NCBI RefSeq assembly: GCF_019352895.1
Contig: NZ_JAAAFX010000004.1
Location: 1,449,286 to 1,513,285, forward strand
Length of the DNA: 64,000 nt
From: Variovorax boronicumulans
GTDB lineage: Bacteria > Pseudomonadota > Gammaproteobacteria > Burkholderiales > Burkholderiaceae_C
Direction of reading: 5' to 3'
The notes under the pieces were generated by a model. That model was not told where the DNA came from. It ran no database searches and was given only the letters and a program-made list of their open reading frames with translations. This document shows, piece by piece, positions 31,018 to 34,864 of the stretch (the stretch's first letter is position 1; each line of letters starts with the position of its first letter). The translations under genes and the position numbers were made by a program.

Positions 31018-31446
31018 ATGACGACGGCACCGGACTTCTCCCCGCGCCCCCTGCCGCTGCGGCTGCAGCCCGGCGACGACCTGCGGCGCGCGCTCGAAGC
31101 GCAAGTCGTGGCATCGGGCGTCAGTGCGGCCTTCGTCGTGGCGGGCATCGGCAGCCTGCGGACCGCGGCCATCCGGCTGGCTGGCGCGCAGAACGCTTCG
31201 ATCCTCGACGGCGACATGGAACTGCTGACCCTGTCAGGCAGCCTGGGCGTCGACGGCGGGCACCTTCACCTCAGCGTAGCCGATACGCAGGGCCGCGTCA
31301 CGGGCGGTCACGCCGGCTACGGCTGCATCGTGCGCACCACGGCCGAGATCCTGCTGTGCCTGCTGCCGGACTGGCACTTCTCGCGCGCACCCGATGCGGC
31401 CACGGGCTGGAACGAGCTCGCCATCCGGCGCCACCCTTCGCCCTAA
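31018..31446 (+). CDS. PPC-domain (DUF296) DNA-binding protein
   Basis: A 142-residue protein consisting of one PPC/DUF296 domain. Typical features are LRLQPGDDLRRALEAQV at the start, VVAGIGSLRTAAIRLA, and GGHLHLSVADTQGRVTGGHAG with the clustered histidines of the fold. In plants this domain occurs in AT-hook DNA-binding proteins; in bacteria its role is not established. It follows the YihY gene closely and converges on the CRP-like gene with a four-base overlap. Confidence 0.88.
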   Translation: MTTAPDFSPRPLPLRLQPGDDLRRALEAQVVASGVSAAFVVAGIGSLRTAAIRLAGAQNASILDGDMELLTLSGSLGVDGGHLHLSVADTQGRVTGGHAGYGCIVRTTAEILLCLLPDWHFSRAPDAATGWNELAIRRHPSP

Positions 31447-32153
31447 CGGTCGCCGCGCGCCAGTGCCAGCGTGTCGGACAGTTGCCGCACATCGGCCACG
31501 ACCAGCGCCTTGCCGTCCTTGTGCAGCACGCCCCGGCGCACCAGCGCGTTGAGTTCGCGCGTCACCTGCTCGCGGTTGGTGCTGATCTGGCTGGCCAGCG
31601 CGGCATGCTTGGGGGCCGGCTCCAGCCGGGCGCCGTTGCCCGACACGCCCGCGGCCTGCGCCAGCCGGAGCAGCTCGGCGTGCAGGCGCCCGGCCACGTC
31701 GAGCGTGCTCAAGTCGATGATGCGTTCGGAGAGCTGGCGCACCAGCGAGGCCAGGCGCAGCATCACGCGCTCGGCCAGCAGCGGCTCCTCGCGCAGCAGC
31801 GCGCGGAAGGCCGTCGGCGCGAGGCTGGCGACCACGCTGGGCGCCAGCGTGACGACGTCGGCCGAACGCGGCCCGCCGTCGATCGCGGCCAGTTCGCCGA
31901 AGAGTTCGCCCTCGCCACAGTCGCGGAAGGTCACCTGCCGGCCCTGGACCGCATAGGTGGTGATGCGCACGCGGCCCGAGACGATGAAATAGACCTCGCC
32001 CTGGTCCTGCGCACGCAGCACCAGCGGATGGTCGGCCTCCACGCTCTGCCAGTGGCAGGCCTGCGCGATGCGGTCGAGCCGGTCGTCGGGCAGCGCCTCG
32101 AACAGCGCGATGCGGCGCAGCGCGAGGGAAGAACGGAGGACAGGTGAGGTCAT
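31443..32153 (-). CDS. Crp/Fnr-family transcriptional regulator
   Basis: A 236-residue CRP-type regulator. The cyclic-nucleotide-binding beta-roll contains the phosphate-binding cassette F85-G-E-L followed by P95-R-S-A98; the glutamate, arginine and serine that hold the cyclic phosphate in E. coli CRP are kept. There are no N-terminal cysteines for an Fe-S cluster, so it is not FNR-like. The C-terminal helix-turn-helix is near residues 184-205 (ALASQISTNREQVTRELNAL). It is divergent from the adenylyl cyclase gene with only 59 bases between starts, suggesting that it senses the cyclase product. Binding of cAMP is inferred, not shown. Confidence 0.9.
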   Translation of the reverse strand: MTSPVLRSSLALRRIALFEALPDDRLDRIAQACHWQSVEADHPLVLRAQDQGEVYFIVSGRVRITTYAVQGRQVTFRDCGEGELFGELAAIDGGPRSADVVTLAPSVVASLAPTAFRALLREEPLLAERVMLRLASLVRQLSERIIDLSTLDVAGRLHAELLRLAQAAGVSGNGARLEPAPKHAALASQISTNREQVTRELNALVRRGVLHKDGKALVVADVRQLSDTLALARGDR

Positions 32154-32212
32154 GGAAGGGCCGGCCGCGGGGCTGCGCGGATTATGCTCGGGGCCCGTCT
32201 TCGAGCCCCTTC

Positions 32213-33859
32213 ATGCCCCTGCGTTCCCCTCCTCGCTTCGCCCTGCCCACGCGGCGCGACCTGCGATGGATCAGCGGGCTGGTCCTCATGGGCTACGTCA
32301 GCGCCCATCTGCTGAACCACGCGCTGGGCCTGGTGTCGCTGGCCCTGGCCGAAGCGGTGCTGCACGCGGTGCATTCCTTCTGGCACAGCCTGCCGGGCAC
32401 GCTGCTGCTCTACGGCGCGGCCACCACGCACATCGTGCTGGCCCTGCGCAGCGTCTGGGACCGCCGCAGCCTGCGCATGCAACCCCTCGATGCGCTGCGG
32501 CTGCTGCTGGGCTTCTCGCTGCCGCTGCTGCTGGCCTCGCACCTGAGCGCGATGCGCTGGGCCTACGAGGCCTTTGCGCTCGAACCGTCCTATGCGCGCG
32601 TGGTGCGCGGGCTCTGGAGCTTCGCCGGCGCGGGCGGCCAGTTCGCGCTGATGGCCGCCGCCTGGGCGCACGGCTGCCTGGGCGTGCACATGGCCTTGCG
32701 CGCGAAGGCGGGCTATCGCCGGCATTCGCACGGGCTGCTGGTGGCGGCGGTGCTGCTGCCGGTGCTGGCGGTCGCGGGCTTCCTCAGCATGGGCCGCGAG
32801 CTGGAGTGGTCGGGCACCGTGGCGGTCCAGGGACCGACGCCGGCGCAGGGCGAGGCCATCGAGACCACCGAACGCCGCATCGAGGTCTTCTACGGCCTGC
32901 TGCTGCTCGCGCTGTTCGCGGCGCGGCAGTTGCGCAGCCGCCGCGAACGCAGGCCCGACAGCGGTGCGATCACGCTGCGCTACCCCGAACGCAGCGTGCG
33001 CGTGCCGCGCGGCTGGAGCGTGCTCGACGCCAGCCGCGCCCACGGCATCGCGCACCTGTCGGTCTGCGGCGGGCGCGCGCGCTGCTCGACCTGCCGGGTG
33101 CGGGTGCAGGGCCCGCCCGCGCACCTCGAGGCGCCGGGCCGCGACGAGCGCCGCACGCTGGAGCGGGTGCGCGCGCCGGCCGACGTGCGCCTGGCCTGCC
33201 AGCTGCGCCCGCGCGGCGACATCGCGGTCACGCCGCTGTTCGCGCCCGCCGCCACCGAGCGCTCGGGCCACTTCGGCCGCGAGCGCGACGTGGCGATCCT
33301 GTTCGTCGACCTGCGGCGCTGGTCGGGCCTGTCGGAGAACCAGTGGCCTTTCGACCTGGCCTACCTGCTGGAGCGCTATTTCGCCACCGTCGGCGCCGCG
33401 GTGCGCGAGAGCGGCGGCGTGCCCAACCAGTTCATCGGCGACAGCGTGATGGCGATCTTCGGCCTCGAGGTCGACCTGCCGACCGCCTGCCGTCAGGCCG
33501 TGCGCGCGGCCGAATTGATCGGCGAGCGGATGGACGCCTGGAGCAGCGGCTTCGAATCGCAGTTCGGCCACCGGCTGGATTTCGGCATGGGCCTGCACGC
33601 CGGGCGCACCGCGGTCGGCGAGGTGGGCTACCTCGAGACCACCACCTTCACCGCGGTCGGCGAGGTGGTCAACACCGCCAGCCGGCTGCAGGACCACTCG
33701 AAGGTGGCCGACGCACGGCTGGTGATCTCCCTGTTCGCCGCGCGGCAGGCCGGCATCGCCGAGCGGCTGGCCACGACGCAGGCGGTGCAGACGGTGCAAC
33801 TGCGCGGGCGCAGCGAGCCGCTCGAGGTGCTGCACGTGCCGCGGCCGGTCCCCGGCTGA
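32213..33859 (+). CDS. Membrane-anchored class III adenylyl/guanylyl cyclase with [2Fe-2S] ferredoxin domain
   Basis: A 548-residue fusion. Residues 15-240 hold six predicted membrane helices rich in histidines (AHLLNHALG, HAVHSFWHS, ATTHIVLAL, SHLSAM, AWAHGCLGVHMALR), a layout like the cytochrome-b anchor of S. meliloti CyaC. Residues 253-345 form a plant-type ferredoxin domain with C285, C291, C294 and C329 (C-x5-C-x2-C and a distal C). Residues 355-510 are a class III cyclase: metal-binding D366 (FVDLRRWS) and D410 (FIGDSVMA), N487 and R491 (VVNTASRL), and T478 at the position typical of class IIIb. The lysine usually found just before FIGD is a glutamine, so purine specificity is not certain. 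It is divergent from the CRP-like gene. Confidence 0.92.
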   Translation: MPLRSPPRFALPTRRDLRWISGLVLMGYVSAHLLNHALGLVSLALAEAVLHAVHSFWHSLPGTLLLYGAATTHIVLALRSVWDRRSLRMQPLDALRLLLGFSLPLLLASHLSAMRWAYEAFALEPSYARVVRGLWSFAGAGGQFALMAAAWAHGCLGVHMALRAKAGYRRHSHGLLVAAVLLPVLAVAGFLSMGRELEWSGTVAVQGPTPAQGEAIETTERRIEVFYGLLLLALFAARQLRSRRERRPDSGAITLRYPERSVRVPRGWSVLDASRAHGIAHLSVCGGRARCSTCRVRVQGPPAHLEAPGRDERRTLERVRAPADVRLACQLRPRGDIAVTPLFAPAATERSGHFGRERDVAILFVDLRRWSGLSENQWPFDLAYLLERYFATVGAAVRESGGVPNQFIGDSVMAIFGLEVDLPTACRQAVRAAELIGERMDAWSSGFESQFGHRLDFGMGLHAGRTAVGEVGYLETTTFTAVGEVVNTASRLQDHSKVADARLVISLFAARQAGIAERLATTQAVQTVQLRGRSEPLEVLHVPRPVPG

Positions 33860-33994
33860 CCACCGGCCGACCCCGCGCAGTTGCCGGAAACTGTGCGCTG
33901 GCGCACATCGCGATCCGGCGCCGGCGATGAGACTGAGGGCCTCGTCACTGCTGTTCCCTGCGGTGACCCGAACCCTTCAGTTCAGGAGCCCCTC

Positions 33995-34444
33995 ATGCAA
34001 GTCAAATCCCTCCTCGCCCTCGCCGCCCTGGCCGCCACCCTCGGCACCGCCTCTGCCCAGACCGTTCCGGCCGAACAATGGGTCGGCGCGCCCATTGCCA
34101 CCACCGGTGCCGTGAAGCGCGCCGACGTGGTCGCCGATCTGCAGCGCAGCGCCCGCAGCGCCAGCGCACCGGCCGAGCAATGGGTCGGATCGCAGGCCTC
34201 GGCCGGCATCGCCGCCGGTTCGCTGAGCCGCGCCGAAGTCGTGGCCGACCTGAACCTCTGGCGCCGTGCCGGCCTCGAGAGCGCCGCGCTCGCCGACACC
34301 GTCGACAGCGCCAACCCGCGCTATGCCCAGCAGCTGGCCGCCTACAGCCACGCCCGCAACAGCAACGTCTACACCGCCGAGGTGCAGCGCGTGCAGGGCA
34401 ACGCCAACGCCGTCGCCGGCACGCCTTCGATCAACGCGCAGTAA
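33995..34444 (+). CDS. DUF4148-like exported protein
   Basis: A 149-residue exported protein with a signal peptide of about 20 residues ending ASA. The mature part repeats the unit PAEQWVG twice (residues about 25-31 and 60-66), each followed by a VKRADVVADLQ / SLSRAEVVADLN helix, a pattern seen in DUF4148-type small proteins of Burkholderiales. The C-terminal half is helical and polar. Function unknown. An AGGAG ribosome site lies just before the start. A DoxX gene follows six bases after its stop. Confidence 0.78.
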   Translation: MQVKSLLALAALAATLGTASAQTVPAEQWVGAPIATTGAVKRADVVADLQRSARSASAPAEQWVGSQASAGIAAGSLSRAEVVADLNLWRRAGLESAALADTVDSANPRYAQQLAAYSHARNSNVYTAEVQRVQGNANAVAGTPSINAQ

Positions 34445-34450
34445 GCACCG

Positions 34451-34864
34451 ATGAACGCCACACGCAACGACGACCTCGGCAAGCTGCTGCTGCGCATCAC
34501 GCTCGGCGGGCTGCTGCTGTTCCACGGCCTGTCGAAGGTCTTCCAGGGCGCCGACGGCATCCACCGCATGGTCGGTGCGGCCGGACTGCCCGACTGGCTG
34601 GCCTACGGCGTGTACCTGGGCGAGTTCGTCGCCCCGCTGCTGGTGCTGGGGGGCCTGTTCGCCCGCCCGGCCGCGCTGGTGATCGCCTTCAACATGGCGG
34701 TGGCGCTGCTGCTGGTGCACACCGGCCAGTTCTTCACGATGTCGAAGATGGGCGGCTGGTCGCTCGAGCTGCAGGCCTTCTTCCTGCTGAACGCCGTGAC
34801 CATCGCGGTGATGGGGGCCGGCGCGTTGCGCGTGGGCAAGCCCTCCGCGCGCTGGTGGGCCTGA
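34451..34864 (+). CDS. DoxX family membrane protein
   Basis: A 137-residue integral membrane protein with four hydrophobic segments, beginning with LGKLLLRITLGGLLLFHGLSK, typical of the DoxX/YphA family. The LGEFVAPLLVLGGLFARPAAL and LELQAFFLLNAVTIAVMG segments follow. Some members act in terminal quinol oxidation or oxidative-stress membrane complexes, but no role can be assigned here. It starts six bases after the DUF4148-like gene, so the two probably share a transcript. Confidence 0.9.
   Translation: MNATRNDDLGKLLLRITLGGLLLFHGLSKVFQGADGIHRMVGAAGLPDWLAYGVYLGEFVAPLLVLGGLFARPAALVIAFNMAVALLLVHTGQFFTMSKMGGWSLELQAFFLLNAVTIAVMGAGALRVGKPSARWWA

Follow-up and report, generated by a model that had tools for sequence, protein, structure and literature searches.

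Within a 64,000-nucleotide stretch of a Variovorax boronicumulans contig (NZ_JAAAFX010000004.1, positions 1,449,286 to 1,513,285; hereafter the window), a membrane-anchored class III nucleotide cyclase and a CRP-like transcription regulator are encoded by a divergent gene pair, with start codons 59 bp apart. We propose that the two probably make up a dedicated circuit turning redox state into transcription, in which the regulator would act on a predicted operator located just past the cyclase gene and followed by genes for a small exported protein and a DoxX-family membrane protein. The cyclase type is already known; what appears to be new is the conservation of a CRP partner private to it, together with a predicted operator and predicted target genes. 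The elements in question are the following.

31443..32153, minus strand: CRP-like regulator, 236 amino acids (Pfam, alignment, structural match).
32213..33859, plus strand: class III cyclase, 548 amino acids plus stop, bearing a redox anchor (Pfam, model).
33892..33907, no strand assigned: putative operator TGTGCGCTGGCGCACA, 33 bp past the cyclase stop in the window.
33929..33934, plus strand: -10-like hexamer GAGACT, 21 nt after the operator, at the fixed spacing of a putative promoter.
33995..34444, plus strand: first of two putative targets, a small exported DUF4148-like protein (Pfam 23.6 bits, under the cut-off of 27).
34451..34864, plus strand: second of the putative targets, a membrane protein of the DoxX family (69.2 bits in Pfam, cut-off 23.6), its gene starting 6 bp after the DUF4148-like gene.

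As to the first argument, the conservation of the pair, two samples of genomes were compared (L and G numbers designate the loci and the genomes, respectively). The first consists of 200 genomes of the family to which the window belongs, 39 of which have a match to the cyclase at E up to 1e-20, including 14 full-length (the window among them) and two anchor-only relatives. With pairing defined as the regulator being the divergent neighbour within 500 bp, 11 of the 14 full-length relatives are paired, and the remaining three (L015-L017) are the most distant ones, with no regulator in the 1.5 kb flank examined. The second sample is represented by one genome per species, with at least 513 relatives confirmed and the best 80 kept. 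Here the regulator is found at 24 of the 25 best-scoring loci (identity 48% or more), being absent at L191 and clipped by a contig end at L188, and it is absent at all 55 of the more distant loci (38-44% identity), two of which, L197 and L201, have less than 300 bp of upstream sequence. One of the distant loci, L240, has a CRP-like match (29%) about 1.4 kb before the cyclase and on the same strand. A quick tree was built from 94 sequences, namely the window cyclase, 13 others of the 200 genomes and 80 of the second collection (the samples overlap, L194 being identical to L011). On it, the 35 paired cyclases fall within one clade of 38, and the pairing takes two label changes versus a mean of 28.7 for shuffled labels, with none of 500 shuffles as low, a comparison in which kinship remains. 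The closest named cyclases on this tree belong to Variovorax (Comamonadaceae), and the same-genus G122 nests among them. The original prediction, made from the letters of the window, had the regulator divergent from the cyclase and 59 bases away, as the coordinates above bear out, and had named a survey of co-occurrence as a check and a rarity of such neighbours as a refutation; the two turn out to be neighbours in most of the full-length relatives and in nearly all of the closest of the best 80 loci, supporting the view that the cyclase and the regulator form a dedicated, stably kept pair.

The second argument comes from the cyclase itself, which is composed of three parts.

32252..32947, plus strand: six-helix anchor, residues 14-245 (AlphaFold model and conserved His).
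32987..33211, plus strand: [2Fe-2S] ferredoxin domain, residues 259-333, with C285, C291, C294 and C329 (Pfam, alignment).
33284..33712, plus strand: class III catalytic domain, residues 358-500, with D366, Q406, D410, T480, N487 and R491 (Pfam range).

The model (mean predicted local distance difference test score, pLDDT, of 89.9) has six long helices in the anchor, at residues 14-40, 60-83, 91-121, 137-162, 166-200 and 210-245, and four His residues there (H32, H73, H110 and H153) are invariant in all 94 aligned family members, while a fifth, H36, is kept in 93, the exception being L202. The Fer2 domain scores 33.7 bits (cut-off 21), with its four Cys likewise invariant (94 of 94), and the Guanylate_cyc domain scores 40.8 bits (cut-off 21.9). 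The residue set of class IIIb is present (D366, D410, T480, N487 and R491), where the two Asp are the metal ligands, T480 is the Thr or Ser that stands for Asp, and N487 and R491 serve the transition state. Thr or Ser occupies the position of T480 in 92 of the 94 members, and D366 and D410 are each missing from a single sequence, L017 and L215, respectively. All of these features, the His-rich six-helix anchor, the ferredoxin Cys and the class IIIb domain, had been read from the sequence in the original prediction, and they are upheld by the scores, the alignment and, for the helices, the predicted structure; the CyaC-type architecture deduced from them is also supported. The best structural match of the catalytic part is CyaC of Spirulina (1wc1; Z 26.6, root-mean-square deviation 1.7, 188 residues aligned), which we take to be unrelated to the CyaC of Sinorhizobium meliloti despite the common name. 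Searches with the structure of the whole cyclase yielded matches to the catalytic domain and not to the anchor. The top match of the anchor among PDB profiles, fumarate reductase subunit 5xmj_C, is not significant (E 3.1), and in this weak alignment both aligned His coincide with H32 and H73. In Pfam, the anchor of the window is without a match up to E 1, and searches with 27 anchor sequences gave scattered single-member matches only, one of them to Sdh_cyt at E 0.44.

Rhizobial members of the family align with the window cyclase at 38-42% over nearly full length, and the cyclase gene of one of these, L202, adjoins a TetR-type gene (by eye), as does cyaC of S. meliloti (passage in PMC10463352). 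From this kinship and this shared neighbour we infer that the window cyclase belongs to the CyaC family, whose studied member, S. meliloti CyaC, itself lies outside the sequences compared. The L202 locus (L202:4977-7362, Rhizobium sp. 32-5/1) encodes a cyclase with Lys in place of Gln and without H36, its gene lying between pyrimidine-reduction-like genes and the TetR-type gene, which is RutR-like (by eye). Variation in domain content is also apparent within the family. One example is L017 (L017:1474-3135, in G139), which is full-length and keeps the invariant anchor His and the four Cys, with D366 changed to Arg and the other cyclase motifs decayed; this is perhaps a cyclase-dead redox protein. 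Another is presented by the anchor-only relatives of two same-family genomes (L018:1504-2376 and L019:1459-2421, frames of 290 and 320 amino acids), which have neither an iron-sulfur (Fe-S) nor a cyclase domain.

The regulator possesses a cNMP_binding domain (66.2 bits, cut-off 27.5) and an HTH_Crp_2 domain (38.5 bits, cut-off 27), and its AlphaFold model (mean pLDDT 92.3) best matches Clr in complex with cyclic adenosine monophosphate (cAMP) and DNA (7pzb; Z 21.8, root-mean-square deviation 3.1, 225 aligned), Clr, GlxR and the CRP of Mycobacterium tuberculosis being tied as structural matches since their Z scores lie within about one unit. The helix-turn-helix (HTH) reads N-R-E-Q-V-T-R from residue 193. 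The ribose-phosphate cassette (E87, R96 and S97) is present, as originally noted, with E87 being Asp in most paired relatives. In an alignment to M. tuberculosis CRP, L141 and S142 occupy the places of T127 and S128 of Escherichia coli, so that the base-reading Thr127 is replaced by Leu. Homologues of the regulator (E up to 1e-30) are found in 17 of the 200 genomes, 11 of them paired and six without a cyclase match. The Arg-Ser of the cassette is kept in all 35 paired regulators (that of L188 is incomplete after it), versus one (L122) of the eight homologues not located beside the cyclase, these being the six from genomes without a cyclase match plus two extra copies in paired genomes; the difference (Fisher 2.5e-7) is not corrected for kinship. 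Such a loss away from the cyclase is what would be expected if the adjoining cyclase provides the ligand.

The third argument is the presence of a common site. A palindrome, TGTGCGNNNNCGCACA, occurs with at most two mismatches near the pair in all 11 paired loci, the best site per locus having no mismatch in six, one in four and two in one. In 13 of 13 sites examined it stands 21 nt before a -10-like nAnACT, with the A at +23, the A at +25, the C at +26 and the T at +27 after the site invariant. These 13 were hand-picked from 17 near sites (at most two mismatches) at the paired loci; the four left out are three with two mismatches (L041 +1577, L046 -2113 and L046 -1419) and one with a single mismatch, L047 +2444, which does have the correct spacing in a genome-wide pattern scan. 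Taking the last T of nAnACT as -7 places the centre of the site at -41.5, and the geometry would be that of a class II CRP promoter, if the hexamer is indeed a -10 element. Two of the five unpaired loci (three full-length and two anchor-only) have a near site with two mismatches, and none has one with at most one mismatch. In the second sample, nAnACT follows the site at this distance in 19 of the 25 closest loci, and in three Ramlibacter loci the hexamer at that position is TAAAGT, TAGAGT or CAGAAT, so that the picture is repeated in 22 of 25. Of the misses, L188 is cut by the end of its contig, L191 lacks the regulator, and the third is L192; the site with nAnACT is found at none of the 55 distant cyclase loci. 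In the genome of the window itself the exact palindrome occurs once, beside the pair, with 24 further places at one mismatch, a class that we consider background, as the reversed control gives 23; read in both directions (48 readings), none of these 24 has nAnACT in place. One of them (L132:1920, G000:C11:35919) has the less strict hexamer GATGAT at the expected distance and precedes a gene resembling a DODA-type dioxygenase (by eye). A reading of the palindrome as the transcription terminator of the cyclase gene might be suggested by its location 33 bp past the stop codon in the window. We consider it extremely improbable and have rejected it: the palindrome is located on the regulator side in L044, L048 and L049, a copy in G088 precedes doxX on another contig, no terminator-like site was scored at the palindrome, and a terminator would leave the fixed spacing to the -10-like hexamer unexplained.

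The genes that follow the site are also of a consistent kind. DUF4148-like and/or DoxX genes are preceded by the site in all 11 paired loci, a DUF4148-like gene being the putative target in ten, and DoxX being the target or the next gene in six (the window, L041, L042, L044, L046 and L048). Two of these, L041 and L042, have two sites each, one ahead of each gene, and the copy in G088, exact and with the same spacing, stands ahead of its DoxX gene. DUF4148 scores above the Pfam cut-off in L041, L043, L048, L049, L050 and L121, and the additional copies of L045 and L047 reach 18.9 and 25.9 bits (cut-off 27); the remaining assignments are BLAST matches to Pfam-scored proteins. Elsewhere in paired genomes, the exact sites found (two in G071 and one in G188) are followed by no recognised DUF4148 or DoxX gene. 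In G088 (L131:2297, G088:C7) an exact palindrome precedes a DsbA-like gene (by eye), with the -10-like hexamer off by two bases. The genome of the window encodes five DoxX proteins in total, and two DUF4148 matches occur elsewhere in it, both under the cut-off. DoxX-type proteins have been associated with the chemistry of thiols, copper or quinols in the envelope (passages in PMC7907618 and PMC10304878), which makes it reasonable, by analogy, that the output of the circuit may feed back on the redox balance of the envelope.

As to the messenger, cAMP is the most likely product of the cyclase. In the window cyclase Gln406 replaces the base-reading Lys before FIGD, as the original prediction had stated; what did not hold is the suggestion that this residue marks an unusual protein, the Gln being present in 52 of the 94 members (all 36 of the closer ones and 16 of the 58 others, of which 40 have Lys), thus across a clade and not as an oddity of this cyclase. 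Strict coupling of Gln406 with Thr488 was likewise rejected, as 13 NQ members have Val488 and 13 DK members have Thr488. The mycobacterial cyclase Rv0386 also has Gln at this position. The circuit could still be real with a messenger other than cAMP, be it cyclic guanosine monophosphate (cGMP) or another cyclic nucleotide, in a channel insulated from cAMP, and the Gln in 36 of 36 closer members agrees with this, as does the Leu of the regulator at the place of T127, where Clr reads the base with Thr (passage in PMC10127613). We regard this as rather unlikely. The Gln is found also in 16 of 58 distant members without the regulator, and classical guanylyl cyclases have other residues. Clr reads the base with a pair of Thr at the places of T127 and S128 and is activated by both cAMP and cGMP (passage in PMC10127613). 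T127L and T127I are frequent among the CRP* alleles of E. coli, said to lower the requirement for cAMP (passage in PMC2743635), and so the Leu of the regulator may merely alter tuning. A more specific proposal, likewise rather unlikely, is that of a private channel, in which the base-reading residues of a quinone-sensing cyclase and of its co-inherited receiver would both have changed (Lys to Gln and Thr127 to Leu) for a nucleotide other than cAMP or for mutual tuning, serving a very small DoxX/DUF4148-like regulon that would act back on envelope redox.

The circuit that we favour may be envisioned as follows. By homology to CyaC, b hemes of the anchor would exchange electrons with the quinone pool, and the redox state would pass to the class III catalytic domain, probably via the [2Fe-2S] domain. 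The cyclase would then produce a cyclic nucleotide, most likely cAMP, to be taken up by the dimer of the divergently encoded CRP-like protein via its Arg-Ser cassette, which is conserved. The loaded dimer, bound to TGTGCGNNNNCGCACA centred near -41.5, would activate a class II promoter, for which the site and the spacing are in place and the start is putative, and the output would be the small exported DUF4148-like protein and/or DoxX, both encoded in the right position. These may plausibly act on the electron or thiol balance of the envelope, closing the loop. Thus the self-contained circuit of the original prediction stands in part: the pair is kept, and a candidate operator and target genes have been found, while the Gln as a mark of a peculiarity of this protein has to be given up.

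A number of observations weigh against this scheme. The pair is not inseparable: six of the 17 genomes with the regulator lack a cyclase match, and the close cyclase of L191 lacks the regulator. At L192 the regulator and DoxX are present and the site is not. The base-reading residues of both the cyclase and the regulator depart from those of classical cAMP partners. L017 keeps the anchor and Fe-S residues without the catalytic D366, indicating that this part can serve another job. Finally, the combined pattern of site (at most one mismatch) and spaced hexamer, while found in ten of the 11 paired genomes of the first sample, each time including their own locus, is found also in 44 of the 189 unpaired ones (Fisher 9e-6), with a total of 76 hits in 54 genomes versus 20 in 19 for the reversed control. 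Given this excess and these unpaired genomes, the half-site is not exclusive to the pair, and in sequence terms it is shared within the Crp/Fnr superfamily.

This last point invites the proposal that the palindrome belongs to another Crp/Fnr regulator and that the paired regulator works elsewhere. In two loci of cyclase-less genomes, L155 and L168, a Crp/Fnr gene encoding an R-R-E helix is itself preceded by such a site, and many of the unpaired hits read ...CGCACAGAC. Near-identical sites, often with ...CGCACAGAC and with the same -10 spacing, are seen at these and other cyclase-less loci, which may point to a second regulator with nearly this operator. We nevertheless find another owner quite improbable, as all 11 paired loci have the site close to the pair, with none at one mismatch or fewer at the five unpaired ones, as it is found at none of 55 distant cyclase loci, and as it occurs beside the regulator gene in G068 and G097, which have the regulator and no cyclase match. 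Of the eight regulator loci that lack an adjoining cyclase, these two are the ones where a site (one mismatch or fewer) lies close to the regulator: in G068 it separates the regulator from a divergent DUF4148 gene (50.5 bits), with the hexamer TAACCT, and in G097 it is located where the regulator gene has its 3' end, ahead of a similar small gene, with the hexamer CATCAT. We thus assign the predicted operator to the paired regulator, by position, spacing and phylogeny, the counts above not being independent events. Another proposal is that the pair works with an input other than quinone redox, the His-rich anchor and the Fe-S domain being structural or sensing oxygen, nitric oxide or iron. The four Cys and invariant His kept in L017 without D366 would agree with such a role. 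This seems unlikely to us in view of the four His and four Cys maintained in 94 of 94 members and of the response to ubiquinone in the studied enzyme of this type (passage in PMC10463352). Redox input from quinones into a dedicated pair remains the reading that we prefer.

Further features of the locus concern gene starts and neighbours. The start of the cyclase at ATG 32213 agrees with the relatives, and an in-frame GTG at 32144 would extend the protein. The divergent gap contains a putative promoter element for the cyclase:

32183..32188, plus strand: putative -10 of the cyclase gene, TATGCT (by-eye reading).

A shared motif, TTATGCTC, is seen by eye in the divergent gap of seven of the 11 paired loci (the window, L006, L007, L008, L009, L011 and L012), and no TGTGCG half-site was seen by eye in this gap in the window. 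On the other side of the regulator, a PCC/DUF296-type gene (82.8 bits, 31018-31446) converges on it, the 3' ends overlapping by 4 bp. Four window proteins searched against NCBIfam have no match above the curated cut-offs.

Overall, the sensor, the receiver, the putative operator and the targets are located within about 3.5 kb, with a single exact operator in the genome, and the predicted operator makes the whole circuit testable. The locus is thus suited for the study of how quinone redox may be relayed to transcription by a cyclic nucleotide and of how such a signal may be kept private, in contrast to S. meliloti, in which the input of CyaC is known and yet the receiver serves many cyclases. 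The circuit would also offer a way into the regulation of DoxX and DUF4148, two families of which little is understood.

In comparison with known systems, the half-site recognised by CRP of E. coli is TGTGA. The window differs from E. coli CRP in its half-site, TGTGCG, and in the Leu for T127, and resembles it in the R-E-x-x-x-R of the HTH and, if the hexamer is the -10, in the centre at -41.5 of class II promoters. These promoter classes are restated in a passage of PMC10127613, which also offers the comparison with Clr: the Clr operator is likewise a 16-bp palindrome, its activation distances are from -42 to -76, and its targets include several small proteins that bear a signal peptide, resembling the DUF4148-like target. 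As to the differences, the core of the Clr site is GTNNCNNNNGNNAC, with C at position 6, where the window site has G (TGTGCG), and Clr reads the base by two Thr versus Leu-Ser in the window regulator.

The closest system is that of CyaC and Clr in S. meliloti, where CyaC responds to quinones, possesses two b hemes and contacts Clr (passage in PMC10463352), and the window shares with it the His-bearing six-helix anchor, the [2Fe-2S] domain, the class III cyclase and the CRP-type receiver. In S. meliloti the receiver is shared by 28 cyclases and the neighbour is the TetR-type gene cycR (passage in PMC10463352), whereas in the window it is the receiver gene that adjoins the cyclase gene divergently, with a putative operator for it near DUF4148 and DoxX; the rhizobial members also mostly have Lys where the paired clade has Gln. 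Our searches of the open-licence literature turned up no CRP partner that is conserved as private to its cyclase and that has a defined operator with DoxX and DUF4148 genes as targets. DoxX-like membrane proteins combined with small periplasmic ones, as in the window, are encoded in clusters responding to redox or metal stress, the RpoE2 cluster of Haemophilus influenzae and the gig cluster of Cupriavidus metallidurans (passages in PMC7907618 and PMC10304878). However, the small proteins there belong to other families and the regulator of H. influenzae is a sigma factor, while in the window a DUF4148-like protein accompanies DoxX under the putative control of a cyclase-CRP pair.

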